A DNA stretch of 31,085 bases. It comes from a virus. Below are positions 5,197-22,575 of the stretch, one piece after another; position 1 is the stretch's first letter, and each line of letters starts with the position of its first letter. Under the pieces are notes generated by a model that was not told the origin of the DNA, did no database searches, and was given only the letters and a program-made list of their open reading frames with translations. The DNA lies in IMG/VR virus record IMGVR_UViG_3300046529_000513, positions 1 through 31,085 of that record. One strand, 5' to 3'. Made by a program: the position numbers and the translations under genes.

Positions 5197-5235
5197 GAAA
5201 GCCGTGAGCTGCGTCACAGGCAGCTCACGGCTTTC
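5197..5235 (-). terminator. Strong intrinsic terminator
   Basis: Perfect 16-bp arms, GAAAGCCGTGAGCTGC and its complement, with a 7-base loop. On the minus strand the stem ends in CTTTC followed by TTCGTT. It begins 21 bases after the stop at 5257 and separates the 5.3-11 kb unit from the promoter at 5.15 kb. The A-rich and T-rich stem ends could make it work in both directions. Confidence 0.85.
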
Positions 5236-5798: not shown

Positions 5799-7337
5799 CT
5801 AACCTTCCTGGTTGTAGAGAGTTGGTACATCGACGATTTCCGCGTCGATGAATCCGCTGCCGGACTCGATCATCCGGTCCGCCGACACGGGGTTGTCGAA
5901 GGCGGTCATCTGCTGCCCTGCGTCTTTTCCGAACAGACGGCTGATCATACCGGCCTGCGCACCGTTCCCCTTAGCCTCCAGTTTCACGGAGAAGGAGTCC
6001 TGCTCCAGTTCGGTCTTCACCTTCACCAGTTTCTGGAGCCGGTCGATCTCACCGGAGAGGTTCGGATCCGCGTAACCGCCGGTCATATCCTCGACCATCT
6101 TCATGAAGAGGACCCGCTGCGCCTGCATCTCAATGAGCGAATTCTGGAGCGCGCCCATCTGCTGCTTGCTCTTCACCTCGACCGGGATGTCGTACGCGCA
6201 GTTGGCATCCTTGTCGAAGGCCGGGCACTTCGAGGAGAGGAAGCAGGACGAGCAGACCCGCATGGACTGCGAGCGGACGGTGACCAGCGGGACGTCGCGC
6301 TCCTTGTTCACGCCGTCGTCGGGGTCGGTGTAGACCTCCTTCTCCTGCACCACGCCGATCACCGGCAAGTTGGTACGCGGGCGGTCCCGGCGAGGGGTGG
6401 GAGTTGCTACGGCGTTGACCACTTCTCCGGTCGTCGTATCAACTGTGCCCCCCTGCGTTTGAGAGAAAGCGGAGAGTATCCCTGAAGCGGAAGTAGTAAC
6501 TGCTTCGGTCTCGGGCGCACGGTGCTGCTCGATGGAGGCCGCCAACTGCTGCCACGACCATATGGTGAACCGCAGGACCTCGTTGTTGTCCCCGTCCTCT
6601 ATCTTGTCCGGGTCGAAGCCCGCTTCCTGGAAAAGCGTGCGGTGCCGCTTACGCGCCTGGTCCTTGTATTTCTTCGGGTACCGCTTCAATTCCCGGCCGG
6701 TCCAGACGATGGTGTCACCGTACTGCGAGGGGGAAATCCAGGAGGTGGACGCGACGGAATCCCAGGTGACGGCAGCCATTTCCGCAGGCTTCGTCATTGC
6801 GACGCCGTGGAGCAGGGTTCCGTATTTCCGGGTGATCTCGTTGAGAACGGGAGAGAGATTCCGTCCGTCCAAATCCGTCTGGGTAATTCCGACACGCTTA
6901 TACCGCTGAGCGAGGCGGTCGAGTTCATCGACGCCCCATTCCGCGTGCCAGATAGGAAGGAACTTGTCCTCCGGCAGATCCTCCCAGAAATCCTCGCGCC
7001 GGGCCTCTATCCACTCGCGCCCGAGAACGACCGCGTCGAACTCGGACACCATATTAAGCGAGTCGATATTCTGCTGGACGAACGCCTCGTAATGAGCGGC
7101 GATCTCCTTGAGTTCACCGACCGAGTACGCGTCGTCCTCGGCCTTGTTCACGGTGTAGGCGCCGGAGTCGAGGAAGACCTTCTGGCCCTCCAGGTAGTGG
7201 TCCTCGATGAGCCACGGCCGGGAGAACTTGGTCCGCCTCCGCAGCCCCATGTAGGAGAGGGAGACGTTCTCGACGCCTTCCTCGGCCAGCATCTTGCGCC
7301 AGCCGGGAATCTCTGAACCGCCGAAGTACAGTTCCAC
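5799..7337 (-). CDS. TGT/DpdA-like TIM-barrel protein, 512 aa
   Basis: Start GTG at 7337 follows GGAG nine bases upstream. FLDSGAY at 55-61 resembles the (T)DSGGF substrate motif of tRNA-guanine transglycosylases, and HGVAMTKP at 177-184 followed by a WDSVASTSW segment at 192-200 resembles the corresponding loop of phage TGT-like and DpdA proteins. Those enzymes exchange guanine for a 7-deazaguanine in tRNA or DNA. The Asp I would expect in the last motif (SVDSTSW-like) is Ala196 here, although Asp193 is nearby. After a Thr-rich linker, CxxC-x5-C-x8-C at 362-380 could bind zinc or an Fe-S cluster; a helical tail follows. No deazaguanine synthesis genes lie in the window. The fold call is moderate; activity is uncertain. 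Confidence 0.5.
   Translation of the reverse strand: MELYFGGSEIPGWRKMLAEEGVENVSLSYMGLRRRTKFSRPWLIEDHYLEGQKVFLDSGAYTVNKAEDDAYSVGELKEIAAHYEAFVQQNIDSLNMVSEFDAVVLGREWIEARREDFWEDLPEDKFLPIWHAEWGVDELDRLAQRYKRVGITQTDLDGRNLSPVLNEITRKYGTLLHGVAMTKPAEMAAVTWDSVASTSWISPSQYGDTIVWTGRELKRYPKKYKDQARKRHRTLFQEAGFDPDKIEDGDNNEVLRFTIWSWQQLAASIEQHRAPETEAVTTSASGILSAFSQTQGGTVDTTTGEVVNAVATPTPRRDRPRTNLPVIGVVQEKEVYTDPDDGVNKERDVPLVTVRSQSMRVCSSCFLSSKCPAFDKDANCAYDIPVEVKSKQQMGALQNSLIEMQAQRVLFMKMVEDMTGGYADPNLSGEIDRLQKLVKVKTELEQDSFSVKLEAKGNGAQAGMISRLFGKDAGQQMTAFDNPVSADRMIESGSGFIDAEIVDVPTLYNQEG
7050..7058 (-). repeat. Degenerate word CTTAATATG
   Basis: Seven of nine bases match CTTAATACC; encodes Leu94-Asn95-Met96 of the TGT-like protein in the same frame as the exact copies. 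It may be a variant or chance. Confidence 0.4.
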
Positions 7338-15425: not shown

Positions 15426-15983
15426 TCACCTCCACTGGTCGGGCGAGTTGTACGGCGACGCGGACGGCAGCAACTTCTTCATCCGCTGGCTGCGGATCGG
15501 GTCGATGTCGGCCATGACCTCGGAGATGCCGTACTTCTGCTGGAGGGCGCCCATCTCGGCCGGGGACAGCGCAGTGTTCTTGCCGCCGTGGGCCAGGCGC
15601 TCGGTGACGTTCCCGGACTGGGTCCACTTCAGGCCCTGGGACTCGTAGAGGAGACCGGCCTGCGGGTTGACCCCGCCGACGTCCGGCCAGAAGTAGTCGG
15701 AGCGGTCGATGACGTCGCCCTTGTGGACACCGCGCTGATAGCTGCGGTCGGTCAGGCGCTTCTGGACGCCTTCCATGACGCGGTCACGCCGTCTGTCGTT
15801 GATGGTGCCGAGGTAGCCGTCGGGGTACTCGGCTGCCGGGGTGCGGGCACCCATAGCAGCGCGCCGGGCGTCCAGCGGGTCACGGAAGGAGAGGCCGTCT
15901 GTTCCGGCTCCTCCGTTCGCGCGCACTGGAGCGCCCGGCTGTCCGATGGCGTACGGGGTGTTGTACGACCAGTTACTGGACAT
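15426..15983 (-). CDS. Hypothetical protein, 185 aa
   Basis: ATG at 15983 follows AGGCAG six to seven bases upstream. The N-terminus is Gly/Ala-rich, the central part is basic with many Arg and Asp, and the C-terminal half is helical. Aromatic segments such as DYFWPDVGG suggest a folded core. No Cys, no membrane segment and no recognised family. It belongs to the tightly packed run between the SpoVS-like gene and the endolysin. Confidence 0.68.
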   Translation of the reverse strand: MSSNWSYNTPYAIGQPGAPVRANGGAGTDGLSFRDPLDARRAAMGARTPAAEYPDGYLGTINDRRRDRVMEGVQKRLTDRSYQRGVHKGDVIDRSDYFWPDVGGVNPQAGLLYESQGLKWTQSGNVTERLAHGGKNTALSPAEMGALQQKYGISEVMADIDPIRSQRMKKLLPSASPYNSPDQWR

Positions 15984-15994
15984 GGCTGCCTACG

Positions 15995-16333
15995 TCACAT
16001 CCCCTGCCGGTACTGGCGGCGCAGGTAGAAGTCCCGGTTGCCGACGGCGCTCGGGACGGTCACGACGTTGCGCTGGACCACACCGGCCTCGGCCGCGTTG
16101 GCGGCGTAGAGGGTCGCGGTCGGCCGCAGGGAGGCGCCGTTGCGCTCCAGGATGTTGGGGCGGTGCTGGGCCGTAGCGGACTCAAGGAAGCCACCCTTGG
16201 CCTGGTTCTTCTTCGGCACGGACCGGCCCTTGATCGGCTTGGCCACGTTGGCGAGCCGGGAGGCGTCGGTGCCCATGGTCGGACGCAGCGACGGATTGTC
16301 CGTCGTCACGATGTCGCTCTTCTTCTTCGCCAC
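15995..16333 (-). CDS. Hypothetical basic protein, 112 aa, GTG start
   Basis: GTG at 16333 has AAGGAG seven bases upstream. The protein begins AKKKSD and stays basic throughout, with a Lys-rich central part and an Arg-rich C-terminus (YLRRQYRQ). It has no Cys. The family is not recognised; nucleic-acid binding or virion-internal location is possible. Confidence 0.66.
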   Translation of the reverse strand: MAKKKSDIVTTDNPSLRPTMGTDASRLANVAKPIKGRSVPKKNQAKGGFLESATAQHRPNILERNGASLRPTATLYAANAAEAGVVQRNVVTVPSAVGNRDFYLRRQYRQGM

Positions 16334-16343
16334 TGCTGGCTCC

Positions 16344-16622
16344 TTAGCCGCCGATGGTTCGGTAGGGGTTCTTGTCAATCCACAGCCGCTTGTCGTACGT
16401 CTGCGACGACGCACCGTTTGCCGACGGCGCGAAGCCACCGCCAATACGCTTGCGGTCGTAGTCCTCCGAGCCGAGGCCATTGGCGGAGCCGCGAACCTGG
16501 GTTTCGTCGAAGACAGACGTGGGCTGGAAACGCGCGACCGGCTGAAGATTTAGCGAGGGATACTTTGTCTCCATTGCGCCGGTCGAAAACGAGCCGTTGC
16601 GCCCGTCCGAAACACCATTCAT
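16344..16622 (-). CDS. Hypothetical protein, 92 aa
   Basis: ATG at 16622 follows GGAGG four bases upstream. The protein is Gly/Ser-rich and polar with scattered aromatic residues, and is probably extended in its first 40 residues. It contains Leu-Asn-Leu but not the CTTAATACC word. No family is recognised. It lies 56 bases downstream of the SpoVS-like gene. Confidence 0.64.
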   Translation of the reverse strand: MNGVSDGRNGSFSTGAMETKYPSLNLQPVARFQPTSVFDETQVRGSANGLGSEDYDRKRIGGGFAPSANGASSQTYDKRLWIDKNPYRTIGG

Positions 16623-16678: not shown

Positions 16679-16978
16679 TCAGTGGACGAGGATCCGCAGC
16701 AGCAGGGCGGAGATATCTCCGGCGTCCTGTGTGGTGACCGTCGTGAATCCGGGTCGGCAGTCGAGCACGATTCCCCGGGGCGCCACGAAACTGTTGGCGA
16801 TGGCGATGGCCTTCATGGACTGGTTTACCGCTCCGGCTCCGATGGCCCGCAGCGTGACCCGCTTACCGTCGTAGACGGCGTGGGAAATGGCGCTGGCCAG
16901 GCTGGCGGCAGAAGACGAACTCTTGACGCGCAGGATGGCCTCGTTACTGGCCCCCTGGTCGTCGTACTGAACTCCCAT
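16679..16978 (-). CDS. SpoVS-family protein, 99 aa
   Basis: Residues 13-83 match SpoVS: a strand ILRVKSSSSAASLAS, then the hallmark IGAGAVNQSMKAIAIAN and a closing FVAPRGI, strand, and Thr-rich end. SpoVS has an Alba-like fold and binds nucleic acid; in Bacillus it affects sporulation and septation. ATG at 16978 has AGGAG eight bases upstream. A strong terminator (17053-17086) isolates it from the endonuclease VII gene, so it may have its own promoter in 16979-17052, where I see only weak boxes. Bacterial SpoVS is about 86 residues; the extra 13 here are mainly N-terminal. A role in altering host development is inference. Confidence 0.82.
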   Translation of the reverse strand: MGVQYDDQGASNEAILRVKSSSSAASLASAISHAVYDGKRVTLRAIGAGAVNQSMKAIAIANSFVAPRGIVLDCRPGFTTVTTQDAGDISALLLRILVH

Positions 16979-17052
16979 TGGTGACTCCTGTGTGTCCGAT
17001 TCTGATCACAATTCGAGAATACGGAGACGCAGGAATCTTGTGTTAATGACAA

Positions 17053-17086
17053 CAGGCCCCAGGGCGTCGTCTACACCTGGGGCCTG
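17053..17086 (-). terminator. Intrinsic terminator after the HNH gene
   Basis: Perfect 11-bp arms CAGGCCCCAGG and CCTGGGGCCTG with a 12-base loop, 16 bases after the stop at 17102. On the minus strand it is followed by TTGTCATTAA. It marks the end of the replication and nucleotide-metabolism unit. Confidence 0.85.
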
Positions 17087-17101
17087 CTGCGTGCGGAGTT
17101 G

Positions 17102-17509
17102 CTATTCAGTTGCGTACCAGCGGCCGAGTTCCTGCGCTGGTGGCTTTTCGAGGTAGACCTTGGCCCGGGAGAAGAACTCCGGATCGTCCCGTGCGTGGCC
17201 CAGAATGTCGTTGCACGGTCTGCACAGCAGGCCCCTCACGAGCAGCGTCTTGTGATCATGATCGACCGACAGGCGCCGGGTCGCCCCGGTGGCCCGGGTG
17301 CAGATGGCGCACTTCCCGCCCTGGGCCTCGTACAGGGTGGCGTAGTCACCTTCGCCGAGTCCGTACGTGGCCTGGACGCGCTTCTCGTGGGCGGCCCGGC
17401 TGCGCCGCTTCTTCTCCTCGCGCCAGTGCGTGGCGCACCGTGGCCCGGGATTGGGCGCTGGGCGTTTGCTCCCGGGCTCACAGTCCTTGCAGATCTTCGG
17501 GGCGGTCAC
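17102..17509 (-). CDS. Endonuclease VII-type HNH nuclease, 135 aa
   Basis: Zinc ligands Cys67, Cys70, Cys96 and Cys99 flank LSVDHDHKT at 80-88, with Asn100 following: the recombination endonuclease VII fold, in which DHDH carries the catalytic His and metal ligand. T4 endonuclease VII resolves branched DNA before packaging. A second Cys/His set (C7, C10, C25, H28) could bind another zinc. The length is close to that of other actinophage relatives and shorter than T4 gp49, which has an added dimerisation part. GTG at 17509 overlaps the upstream stop as GTGA. A homing-type HNH is the alternative, less likely because the gene is fully integrated in the operon. Confidence 0.83.
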   Translation of the reverse strand: MTAPKICKDCEPGSKRPAPNPGPRCATHWREEKKRRSRAAHEKRVQATYGLGEGDYATLYEAQGGKCAICTRATGATRRLSVDHDHKTLLVRGLLCRPCNDILGHARDDPEFFSRAKVYLEKPPAQELGRWYATE

Positions 17510-18108
17510 GCGAGGCGAAGGATCTCGCGGACCTTGGTATTAAGGTCCTCGATCGTCCCGTCGTTGACGATCGCGGCGTCGAACCACTCGGGCGGCAGTC
17601 CCTTGTCGGACTTGTGGTCGTTGACGGGACCGTATCCGGGCCGGTCGATCTTGATGAGCGTACCGAGGCGGGAGTCGATGGCGTGGTGCTCGTTGACGAA
17701 GCGGACGTCGGTGAAGACGTACTTCTTGCCCTCCTCCAACTTCTTGAACACCGAGTCGACCCACACGTTCTGGTCGATCATTTCCCGGCCGACCTCGGTG
17801 CCGAGGACCTGGAGCATCCGGCGGATCTCCTCGTACTGGCGCTTGGCCTCGTCCCAGCCGTGTCGGTCCACCAGGTCCTGGACTCGCTGGTCCTCGCCGT
17901 AGGGGTGGAAGAGGATGACCGGGTTGAGGACGTACAGGGCCTCGCGCAGGACGTCGGCGAAGGCGACGCGGGTGTAGCCGTACTGGGCCAGGATCTCGGC
18001 GACGGTGTCCTTACCGGCCCCGGCGAAGCCGTGGAGGCCGATGTACTGCGGGAGCCAGGACTCGATGATCTCGGTGTCGTGGTCGACGGGTGCGGTGGCG
18101 GCGTTCAC
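17506..18108 (-). CDS. Deoxynucleoside monophosphate kinase, 200 aa
   Basis: GFAGAGKDT at 27-35 is a P-loop, followed by the helix, AFADVLRE and FTDVRFVNE segments typical of phage dNMP kinases (T4 gp1 type), which phosphorylate dNMPs to dNDPs using ATP. GTG at 18108 overlaps the upstream stop as GTGA; a longer in-frame start has no ribosome site. The gene lies with ThyX and the class II reductase in the window and so fits dNTP supply. Codons 189-191 near the C-terminus carry the CTTAATACC word. Dephospho-CoA kinase-like proteins share this loop and are an alternative. Confidence 0.82.
   Translation of the reverse strand: MNAATAPVDHDTEIIESWLPQYIGLHGFAGAGKDTVAEILAQYGYTRVAFADVLREALYVLNPVILFHPYGEDQRVQDLVDRHGWDEAKRQYEEIRRMLQVLGTEVGREMIDQNVWVDSVFKKLEEGKKYVFTDVRFVNEHHAIDSRLGTLIKIDRPGYGPVNDHKSDKGLPPEWFDAAIVNDGTIEDLNTKVREILRLA
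17536..17544 (-). repeat. CTTAATACC word, copy 7
   Basis: Codons 189-191 of the dNMP kinase, near the C-terminus, followed by AAGG. Confidence 0.9.
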
Positions 18109-18470
18109 TTGTCTGCTCCGGGGGTCTTGGTGGTGAGGCTCTTCTTGATGTGGTCGGCGACGAGGGGGATATCCCACAGGGCCCGGCGGGCCTGGACGAC
18201 CGACTCGTTGCGCTTGGCCTCCAGGCGCTGGAGGGTGTTGAACTGGCCGTTCCAGCGGCCGGTCATCCAGTCGGTCTGCGCGAGCAGCGGGGTGACCGTC
18301 TCGACGAGCCGCAGGGCCTGCTTCTCGGTCTTGCGGAGCCGGTTGCGCTCCATGGCGAGTTCGTCGATCTTGCGGTCGAGTTGGGTGCGGAGGTTGATCA
18401 GGGCCCAGGCCATGAACATGAGGATGCCGACCCAGCCGACGATGACGGCGATGAGGAGGATGGTGTTCAT
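18105..18470 (-). CDS. Membrane-anchored coiled-coil protein, 121 aa
   Basis: ATG at 18470 overlaps the upstream stop (ATGA). One hydrophobic segment (about residues 3-26) is followed by a charged, heptad-like helix from 28 to 60. It has no Cys and ends in a Lys-rich segment. Such single-span coiled-coil proteins can be spanins, holin partners or membrane anchors for replication; actinobacteria lack a classical outer membrane, so a spanin is unlikely. Function unknown. Confidence 0.64.
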   Translation of the reverse strand: MNTILLIAVIVGWVGILMFMAWALINLRTQLDRKIDELAMERNRLRKTEKQALRLVETVTPLLAQTDWMTGRWNGQFNTLQRLEAKRNESVVQARRALWDIPLVADHIKKSLTTKTPGADK

Positions 18471-20930: not shown

Positions 20931-21843
20931 CTGTGGTGTTCTCCCAGCAGTGCGTGAAGAATGGGCATTCGGTCTTGCAGACCTTTTTGTCCTGGCCGCA
21001 GAAATCCGGCCGGGGCGGTGGCTTGCCCTTCTTCAGGGCGTATTTGATGTCGAGCGCGGACTCGAAAAGCGGCTCGGCGATCTCCGGGTTGTACTGGACG
21101 ACGAATTCCTTGTGGGCCTGCGTCGCCTTGTACTCGTAGAGGAATATGACCTTGTCGAAAGGCAATCCCATCTCCTGGCAGAGCCGCAGATAAATCTGGG
21201 TCTGGCGGATATGGCTGCCGAAGGGACGCCGCAGCGCCTTCCACAGGCCGTCCAGGTCGATTACGGTCTTGCCGTCCTCGGTCTTCACCGTGTACTCGCG
21301 CAGCAGTTCGGGCTGGTCGAAGCGGACGGTTCCGATGCCGACGGACTTGATCTCGATCAGGGCTTTCAGGTCCTCGATGGCGCCGTCCTCGTGCCCGGCG
21401 ATCAGGAACTCGGATTCGGCCTGGACGGGGACCTCGGCGTAGTCCAGGTAGACCGGGAGGGTCGCCATACTGGTGCGGTCGCGGCAGGACGGGCAGGTCT
21501 TGCGTCCGCCTGTGCCCATCTCCCAGTAATCGCACACCGGGCACTTCCACTTGCCCCACAGGCGGTCCATCTGCTGGAGCCACTTCTGCCACTTCGCGTG
21601 GATGCCGTGGCCCTCCTCGAAGACGGCCTCCAGTTGCGCGGAGAACGAGCGGCCCTTCTCGGGGGAAACCCCCGCCAGCCTGTAGTAGGTCTGACGGGGG
21701 CACCAGTCGCTCTTTGCCATCTCGCTGGGGTGGATGATGTCCTGCCGACGGTCGGTCGGCTTGCCGTGCTGGTCGAGCAGGTGCTTGTGGATGTCACCGA
21801 GGAGGACGGACCTACTCTTCTTCGACTCCGCCAGCGCTGCCAT
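20662..21843 (-). CDS. Cas4/RecB-like exonuclease with Fe-S cysteines, 393 aa
   Basis: PD-(D/E)XK core: His38 in HPSE, Asp153 in GHEDGAI, then EIK at 164-166, and QTQIY at 214-218 as the QxxxY motif. Cys48 together with Cys289, Cys293 and Cys299 in CKTECPFFTHC matches the four-Cys Fe-S site of Cas4/AddB-type nucleases. A zinc-ribbon insertion (CPVC 101-104, CPSC 117-120) is less usual. Such phage enzymes resect DNA ends for recombination. ATG at 21843 is the likely start, overlapping the WhiB gene by 32 bases; 21927 is in frame but lies far inside that gene. Beyond residue 304 the frame overlaps another gene and is Arg/Gly/Ser-rich. Confidence 0.82.
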   Translation of the reverse strand: MAALAESKKSRSVLLGDIHKHLLDQHGKPTDRRQDIIHPSEMAKSDWCPRQTYYRLAGVSPEKGRSFSAQLEAVFEEGHGIHAKWQKWLQQMDRLWGKWKCPVCDYWEMGTGGRKTCPSCRDRTSMATLPVYLDYAEVPVQAESEFLIAGHEDGAIEDLKALIEIKSVGIGTVRFDQPELLREYTVKTEDGKTVIDLDGLWKALRRPFGSHIRQTQIYLRLCQEMGLPFDKVIFLYEYKATQAHKEFVVQYNPEIAEPLFESALDIKYALKKGKPPPRPDFCGQDKKVCKTECPFFTHCWENTTDDQSGSTQGLGSSPEPEPEGDEASGAGGPVPASEAGGRRARTSSGSHRTRRRRTDGAVRQDDSVGGVHGQPTGSGGGGRKVVRRHTRTT

Positions 21844-22231
21844 CTTCCCCGTCGCCTTCGTCGTCGAGGTCTTCCGGCGCGACCCGGTCCGGCCAGACGC
21901 GGACGAGGTCTTCGCGGGTCGGGGCATTGTCGAAACTCCAGTCTTGCTTGGGGACGAACCTCCTGATGTAGGCCCGCTCCAGGACGGTGAGCCCGCCCCA
22001 GACGCCGTAGTGCTCGTTGTTGACCAGAGCGAATTGGAGACACTGTTCTCGCAGCGGACACACCCGGTCGGTATAGGTGCCGTTGCAGACGTGCTTGGCC
22101 TCGGTCTCCTCCCCGGTACCGTCTCCGAAGAAGTCGTCGTGGTCCCTGGTCGGCCGGAACTTCCGGCAGGCGGCTTCCTTGTCCGGGTTCCCTCCGCCGT
22201 CCCATTCGGGGGCGTTGAGGCGCAGGTGCAT
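21812..22231 (-). CDS. WhiB-family Fe-S regulator, 139 aa
   Basis: Cys22, Cys49, Cys58 and Cys64 with the GVWGG turn at 76-80 define a WhiB-like protein. These bind a [4Fe-4S] cluster and regulate transcription with the main sigma factor, and are confined to actinobacteria and their phages. Between the second and third Cys there are eight residues, where the family usually has two (CxxC), so the cluster site is expanded. The C-terminus is acidic (EDLDDEGDGEDG), not the usual basic AT-hook-like tail. ATG at 22231 overlaps the upstream stop as TAATG. Phage WhiB proteins, such as that of TM4, can act on host WhiB targets; the target here is not known. Confidence 0.85.
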   Translation of the reverse strand: MHLRLNAPEWDGGGNPDKEAACRKFRPTRDHDDFFGDGTGEETEAKHVCNGTYTDRVCPLREQCLQFALVNNEHYGVWGGLTVLERAYIRRFVPKQDWSFDNAPTREDLVRVWPDRVAPEDLDDEGDGEDGSAGGVEEE

Positions 22232-22575
22232 TACCACGACAGCACCTCGTCCGGGTCGGCGTCCGGAAACGCCTTGGTATTAAGCGTGAGGAATGTTTCC
22301 TCGCTCATCACGATCCAGGTCCTTCCGCTGTCCATCTGGATCCCGAAGAGCATTTCCCTGCCGTCGAGGAGGGCCTGTTTCTCTGCGGTCTGGAGTTCTG
22401 CGTCTTTCAGGGCGTACTGCTTCTTGCCGGTGACCTTGTATTCGACGGAGTACTCCGGGGTCCGTACGTCGTTCTTCCGGACCCAGCCGTTTCCGCTGCC
22501 CGCGTTAACCGTCCCGCCGAGGAGTGCCGCTCCCCGCCTCTCCTGCTTCTGTGACTTCTTCAGCATGTCCGCCAT
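22231..22575 (-). CDS. Hjc-like PD-(D/E)XK nuclease, 114 aa
   Basis: Asp36 and Glu45-Tyr46-Lys47 form a PD-ExK-like core after a KNDVRTP strand, with Glu12 as a possible first acidic residue. The helix after the core (QTAEKQALLDGREMLFGI) and the strand TWIVMS resemble archaeal Hjc resolvases and small phage nucleases. A Holliday-junction role would fit beside RecA and the Cas4-like nuclease. ATG at 22575 has GGAG seven to eight bases upstream and overlaps the preceding gene by 71 bases; Met4 (22566) is another start. Codons 98-100 carry the CTTAATACC word near the C-terminus. Confidence 0.58.
   Translation of the reverse strand: MADMLKKSQKQERRGAALLGGTVNAGSGNGWVRKNDVRTPEYSVEYKVTGKKQYALKDAELQTAEKQALLDGREMLFGIQMDSGRTWIVMSEETFLTLNTKAFPDADPDEVLSW
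22276..22284 (-). repeat. CTTAATACC word, copy 9
   Basis: Codons 98-100 of the Hjc-like protein, followed by AAGG. Confidence 0.9.

Follow-up and report, generated by a model that had tools for sequence, protein, structure and literature searches.

SpoVS is a core gene of a family of large actinobacteriophages and adjoins a slot in which unrelated branched-DNA resolvases are exchanged

Introduction

The name SpoVS, which derives from sporulation, is about three decades old, and to our knowledge no molecular function of the protein has been described in that time. Proteins of the Alba type bind RNA as frequently as DNA. In Bacillus, spoVS mutants affect sporulation (PMC8510167), RNA binding is described for members of the Alba superfamily (PMC11621453), and virome papers have read viral spoVS as a sporulation gene by its name and category (PMC6172770, PMC8940887). 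For the control of phage genes by their leaders, T4 provides the closest described case: the Shine-Dalgarno sequences of genes e, soc, 49 and I-TevI lie in a leader helix, and in gene e, late promoters are embedded in the sequence for the 5' side of this inhibitory helix, which allows late transcripts to be translated (PMC3014915). The SpoVS family itself is known and the copy of phage BRock is already annotated; the core status, the resolvase slot occupied by four families and the leader switch reported here were not found in a limited search of open papers.

The locus studied here lies in a 31-kb viral record, referred to as the window; every credible gene in it is on the minus strand. Rather than influencing bacterial spore formation, its SpoVS protein probably assists the virus in managing viral DNA at a late stage of infection.

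Identity and predicted fold of the SpoVS protein

The gene under study has the following position:

16679..16978, minus strand: spoVS-like coding sequence, 99 amino acids, single Alba/SpoVS domain

Its start codon is the ATG at 16978-16976 on the minus strand, and the plus-strand reading of 16679-16978 is unrelated. The original prediction had assigned the product to SpoVS from the block IGAGAVNQSMKAIAIA, held to be diagnostic, and had named the lack of a SpoVS match in a profile search as the result that would speak against it. The block is present in the product of the minus-strand frame, and the Pfam profile PF04232 matched with an E-value of 3.9e-21 and 75 bits, as opposed to a curated cut-off of 24 bits, over profile positions 2-73 of 83 and thus nearly full length (E 1.3e-22 in the own-genome search). 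The PHROGs family phrog_35646, annotated as "sporulation protein", was matched with E 4.9e-34 and the crystal structure of Thermus SpoVS, at sequence level, with E 4e-9. The core AVNQxxKAIAIA, which belongs to the invariant positions of the alignment, is conserved. An AlphaFold2 model built with 17 phage homologues (pLDDT 89.3, pTM 0.78) has the order beta-alpha-beta-alpha-beta-beta. In Foldseek searches with this model, SpoVS structures ranked at the top (2eh1, E 3.8e-9), followed by archaeal Alba proteins, namely ssh10b (E 6e-4), Ph Alba and Sso Alba, with TM values of about 0.6; RNase P/MRP Rpp20/25 and an Alba-RNA complex were also matched. Because the two profile matches, the Thermus structure, the AlphaFold2 model and the Foldseek results agree, the family identity is secure, and the predicted Alba-like fold is consistent with the earlier suggestion that the phage uses SpoVS as a nucleic-acid protein.

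The firmicute-type neighbourhood ymdB-spoVS, an order which is common in bacterial members and is no requirement for family membership, is absent in the window, where the neighbours are a resolvase and phage genes. Two records named "Bacteriophage sp." (MT835471 and MT836246) are Clostridia-chromosome-like fragments carrying a ymdB-like gene, named from its sequence, followed by spoVS; they are probably mislabelled and were left out of the phage set.

Gene context and phage family

The genes surrounding spoVS are arranged as follows:

17506..18177, minus strand: deoxynucleoside monophosphate kinase, start of the open reading frame probably inside (phrog_139, E 5.6e-52)
17102..17509, minus strand: endonuclease VII, a branched-DNA resolvase, immediately upstream of spoVS (PF02945, E 3.1e-27; phrog_307, E 2e-63)
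16344..16622, minus strand: small conserved gene, first downstream neighbour, order conserved in relatives
15995..16333, minus strand: conserved downstream gene, GTG start likely at 16333, downstream of SpoVS in 83 of 95 distinct loci
15426..15983, minus strand: conserved family-marker gene used as an independent probe, accompanied by SpoVS in 6/6 cultured-phage records and 78/79 viral contigs

As previously proposed, spoVS stands beside phage replication genes, since a DNA-metabolism block lies directly upstream, which comprises endonuclease VII, the dNMP kinase, ThyX, an RNA ligase, a Cas4-like exonuclease, UvsX/RecA, RNR and the DNA polymerase. An SSB-like gene of the window was assigned from its match to the annotated SSB of phage LuckySocke. 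Downstream of SpoVS follow uncharacterised genes and then a GH25-type endolysin; for the first of them (16344..16622), no family match was found in the Pfam and PHROGs profiles. Similar genes recur in this order in IMG/VR contigs with lengths reaching 110 kb, and the relatives among cultured phages are BRock, LuckySocke, Alone3, GiJojo and pSt2308, all of them Streptomyces phages with genomes of 112-116 kb. These relatives support a Streptomyces or actinobacterial origin of the phage, in agreement with the earlier view of a probable Streptomyces phage.

Several other genes of the window deserve mention in their own right. A WhiB-like regulator at 21812-22237 (minus strand), conserved in BRock and LuckySocke, is the second gene of this phage with a sporulation-related name beside SpoVS. 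A second Holliday-junction resolvase (phrog_2002) is encoded at 22231-22575 (minus strand) in addition to endonuclease VII, and the same family is also found upstream of SpoVS in the gut phage MT835482. A queuine tRNA-ribosyltransferase-like protein is encoded at 5799-7337 (minus strand; phrog_887, E 2e-78), and BRock gp36 is annotated with the same function. Phage TGT-like proteins are sometimes DpdA enzymes of 7-deazaguanine DNA modification.

Core status in the phage family and distribution in hosts

SpoVS is a core gene of an actinophage family of about 105-116 kb of the BRock/LuckySocke type, in which it is vertically kept. When IMG/VR loci were collected through the marker gene 15426-15983, 78 of 79 contained SpoVS upstream on the same strand; the search covered the best 80 of 545 confirmed relatives, so that rarer losses could escape. 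All six INPHARED records with the marker also contain SpoVS. In the sole exception among the 79 loci, the next gene directly follows RuvC, SpoVS seemingly having been lost from between them; because this phage does without SpoVS while retaining RuvC, SpoVS is not strictly essential. Among 13 distant relatives, SpoVS shows 51-72% identity as opposed to 46-56% for the DNA polymerase and is the more conserved of the two in 12 cases and equal in one. Within the window clade, the dN/dS of spoVS is about 0.15, compared to 0.22-0.57 for three neighbouring genes.

PF04232 was matched in 3 of 394 Streptomyces genomes, one of which had been chosen as the centre of the set because of its match, and all three copies lie in related prophages in the phage order RuvC-SpoVS. 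At class level, 2 of 395 genomes exceeded the PF04232 cut-off, both with copies in phage gene order. A host origin of spoVS was rejected, as Streptomyces and its class are nearly devoid of SpoVS outside prophages; six matches below the cut-off, in long open reading frames, were judged to be due to chance. The same phage gene order was found in a prophage of Terracoccus, a genus of the Intrasporangiaceae, and SpoVS also occurs in a Bacteroides phage; we know of no sporulation in either host. A viral auxiliary gene would be expected to occur patchily, as an accessory gene, and to have a close homologue in the host, whereas SpoVS is present in nearly all family loci and the host genus lacks it outside prophages. 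The presence of the gene in this phage, initially considered unexpected, is thus the rule within its family. In the SpoVS tree, the phage-family copies form almost one single group, and its 94 columns are too short to place the origin of these copies.

A resolvase slot with four exchanged families

A branched-DNA resolvase was found directly upstream in 92 of 95 distinct SpoVS loci: RuvC in 64, endonuclease VII in 14, a PD-(D/E)XK protein in 13 and RusA in one. These loci represent distinct SpoVS sequences of one phage family, which are related to each other and were partly found through SpoVS itself. The upstream gene of LuckySocke, BRock and GiJojo is annotated as RuvC-like resolvase, in contrast to endonuclease VII in the window; loci lacking both carry a PD-(D/E)XK protein, which falls into phrog_244 (Holliday junction resolvase) and matches Pfam PDDEXK_15 weakly, or in a single case RusA. 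The distance between resolvase and SpoVS is mostly within about 150 bases and reaches about 850 bases in a few loci (L175, L178).

Four unrelated resolvase families have been swapped repeatedly in this slot. Mapped onto the tree of a neighbouring gene, the resolvase type switches at least 9 times, and the SpoVS tree, which is poorly resolved, gives 16 switches, with adjacency to SpoVS kept on both, and endonuclease VII and PD-(D/E)XK are both found among phages whose SpoVS proteins are at least 88% identical. Two remote gut/Bacteroides phages also carry a Holliday-junction-type nuclease directly upstream of SpoVS. The exchange of four unrelated families in one conserved slot is a striking non-orthologous replacement.

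The intergenic hairpin and the spoVS leader

The region between the endonuclease VII gene and spoVS contains the following elements:

17050..17089, minus strand: strong GC-rich, terminator-like hairpin
17041-17046, minus strand: TTAACA, 19 nt further upstream of TATTCT, conserved as TTAACA-N19-TATTCT
17016..17021, minus strand: -10-like TATTCT, located in the leader hairpin's 5' half, TATTCTC invariant in all clade relatives
16983..17037, minus strand: leader hairpin pairing the Shine-Dalgarno sequence, arms 17037-17030 (GATTCCTG) and 16990-16983 (CAGGAGTC), inner CTCCG/CGGA helix
16985..16989, minus strand: Shine-Dalgarno sequence AGGAG of spoVS, invariant in 15 relatives

The earlier reading of a strong terminator isolating spoVS holds in so far as the strong hairpin is real and lies upstream of the gene (arms 17050-17063 and 17076-17089, 93% complementary; folding z -6.9), but a long U-tract is absent and a simple terminator scan of the region did not flag it. 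A hairpin is found at the equivalent place in the window clade and in all distant phages that were folded, with unrelated sequence in the distant ones. Elsewhere in the window, an inverted repeat with perfect 16-bp arms around a 7-nt loop lies between genes at 5197-5235 and is probably another terminator.

In the window clade, 88.6% of the cells of the leader hairpin are paired and show compensatory changes, compared to 26-46% in slid controls, and its covariation score was reached by none of 500 shuffles. A second subclade of quite different sequence forms the same Shine-Dalgarno hairpin (2 of 2000 shuffles), the leader sequences being wholly divergent between subclades. RNAalifold's own covariation term was small in alignment A3, because the pairs that vary most are out of register from one subclade to another; the count over the named structure and the second subclade are the better tests. 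For the window, the calculated cost of opening the Shine-Dalgarno sequence is 12.6 kcal/mol in the read-through RNA as opposed to 0.7-2.0 kcal/mol in RNA starting after the -10 element. Across the family, with the start codons of distant relatives picked by rule, this cost is at least 5 kcal/mol in 44 of 94 loci, compared to 110 of 940 shuffles and 33 of 210 control gene starts, and a leader shortened to 33 nt leaves only 5 of 94 loci at this level. In the cultured phages BRock, LuckySocke and GiJojo, hairpin and -10 element are both present, but the Shine-Dalgarno sequence shows little locking. A generic test for strong hairpins at -140 to -25 gave 53 of 94 loci below -15 kcal/mol versus 24% of shuffles, which is weaker than hoped, because in distant relatives only one of the two, either the Shine-Dalgarno hairpin or the terminator, is conserved.

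Of the 94 loci, 85 have a -10-like TANNNT between -34 and -57, compared to 10-19 of 94 in equal background windows, and the element has the perfect form TGTATAAT in several distant phages. The window has a single copy of the combination TTAACA-N17-21-TATTCT, none of the relatives of about 100 kb has more than one, and in the sequences listed it is the spoVS leader site. A sigma-70 scan of the region called no promoter, since the spacer of TTAACA-N19-TATTCT does not fit the limits of the scan. The candidate CCGTATTCTC was rejected as a general phage promoter motif, as it is not enriched in the window when two mismatches are allowed. In two cultured phages (L035, L036), a TACAAT element upstream of SpoVS lies within a short palindrome, CGGAT...ATCCG, which is perhaps an operator.

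Proposed role and alternative explanations

We propose, with a rough probability of 0.5, that SpoVS is a late, core, Alba-type nucleic-acid-architecture protein which joins the resolvase in acting on phage DNA. The analysis establishes the family identity, the predicted fold, the distribution with its core status, the linkage to the exchanged resolvases and the anatomy of the leader with its covariation and -10 position; from these we infer that SpoVS binds DNA, is expressed late and acts jointly with the resolvase. Ahead of packaging, a SpoVS dimer or tetramer would coat the replicated, branched DNA of the phage or organise it, and the branched DNA bound by it would be the same substrate that the neighbouring resolvase cuts. 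The hairpin downstream of the DNA-metabolism genes would block read-through and probably delay spoVS expression, while residual read-through RNA would trap the Shine-Dalgarno sequence in the leader hairpin. The putative promoter inside the 5' half of this hairpin would yield short transcripts with a free Shine-Dalgarno sequence, which may open the downstream block including the lysis gene. As SpoVS is located at the end of the DNA-metabolism block, its adjacency to the resolvase could also reflect module order.

That the two genes adjoin merely because the border of two modules runs between them, with an unrelated function of SpoVS, appears rather improbable to us. The hairpin and the putative promoter between resolvase and SpoVS, which would therefore belong to different transcription units, agree with such a passive arrangement, but it accounts poorly for the retention of adjacency through at least 9 resolvase swaps and for its recurrence in remote gut phages. 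SpoVS might instead bind RNA and stabilise or silence phage or host mRNA, or autoregulate via its own structured leader. RNA binders of the Alba superfamily (PMC11621453), the Foldseek matches to Rpp20/25 and the Alba-RNA complex, the conserved and structured leader and the RNA ligase encoded by the phage all fit this role, which we nevertheless consider unlikely: the constant partner of SpoVS is a DNA-junction nuclease and no RNA enzyme, and the complete divergence of the leader sequences between subclades would restrict autoregulation to recognition of structure. This RNA-binding role and the passive arrangement are the two foremost alternatives.

The original prediction also raised a role in host development, in which SpoVS would mimic or disturb sporulation or septation factors and delay or steer Streptomyces differentiation. 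This reading draws on the sporulation effects of Bacillus spoVS mutants (PMC8510167), the classification of spoVS as an auxiliary or host-takeover gene in viromics papers and PHROGs, and the WhiB-like regulator on the same phage. However, Streptomyces has no native SpoVS, the Terracoccus prophage and Bacteroides phage copies belong to hosts in which we know of no sporulation, and core status, slow evolution and linkage to the resolvase do not suit an accessory moron. Since SpoVS is core in the phages, nearly absent from Streptomyces and tracks the resolvase rather than a host developmental gene, we regard this role as quite improbable and among the least supported readings. It is very unlikely that SpoVS is a structural or packaged virion protein, such as an internal component that is bound to the DNA and injected along with it, with virion proteins encoded by the downstream late block; SpoVS does head a conserved uncharacterised block reaching up to the endolysin and has a late-type leader, but the head and tail genes annotated in BRock are far away in the genome and the downstream genes have no virion match.

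A more specific, tentative form of our preferred reading, the joint action of SpoVS with the resolvase on phage DNA, is a two-part late DNA-maturation module in which SpoVS presents branched DNA to whichever resolvase of the RuvC, endonuclease VII, PD-(D/E)XK or RusA type currently occupies the slot, independently of its fold. If true, SpoVS proteins in general would gain a molecular function in branched-DNA handling. The resolvase linkage offers a direct, testable hypothesis for the function of SpoVS, and describing phage SpoVS as a resolvase-tied core gene corrects an annotation used in ecological inference.

Comparison with known systems

The SpoVS proteins of Bacillus and Thermus (PF04232) share with the phage protein the whole-length domain, the AVNQxxKAIAIA motif and the Alba-like fold, which is predicted for the latter, and Thermus 2EH1 has 38% identity to it in the structural match. 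They differ in that the protein described here is encoded by a phage core gene which adjoins a resolvase instead of ymdB, in phages whose host lacks SpoVS. With the archaeal chromatin protein Alba (Sso10b/ssh10b), the predicted fold is shared at a sequence identity of only 12-20%. The closest annotated counterpart is phrog_35646 with BRock gp51, which belongs to the same protein family and the same phage family; its PHROGs category "moron/host takeover" is unsupported by the core, syntenic distribution of SpoVS.

The leaders of T4 genes e, soc, 49 and I-TevI resemble that of spoVS in that a conserved helix sequesters the Shine-Dalgarno sequence; this is so in the window clade, and family-wide 44 of 94 loci show strong locking. 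The late promoter of T4 gene e in the DNA of the 5' strand may have its counterpart in the -10-like element in the 5' arm of the spoVS hairpin. However, this element is of the host type (TATTCT/TATAAT) and not the T4 late motif, and the spoVS switch is predicted rather than measured. A further difference concerns T4 gene 49, as the spoVS leader would control the gene next to endonuclease VII and not endonuclease VII itself.
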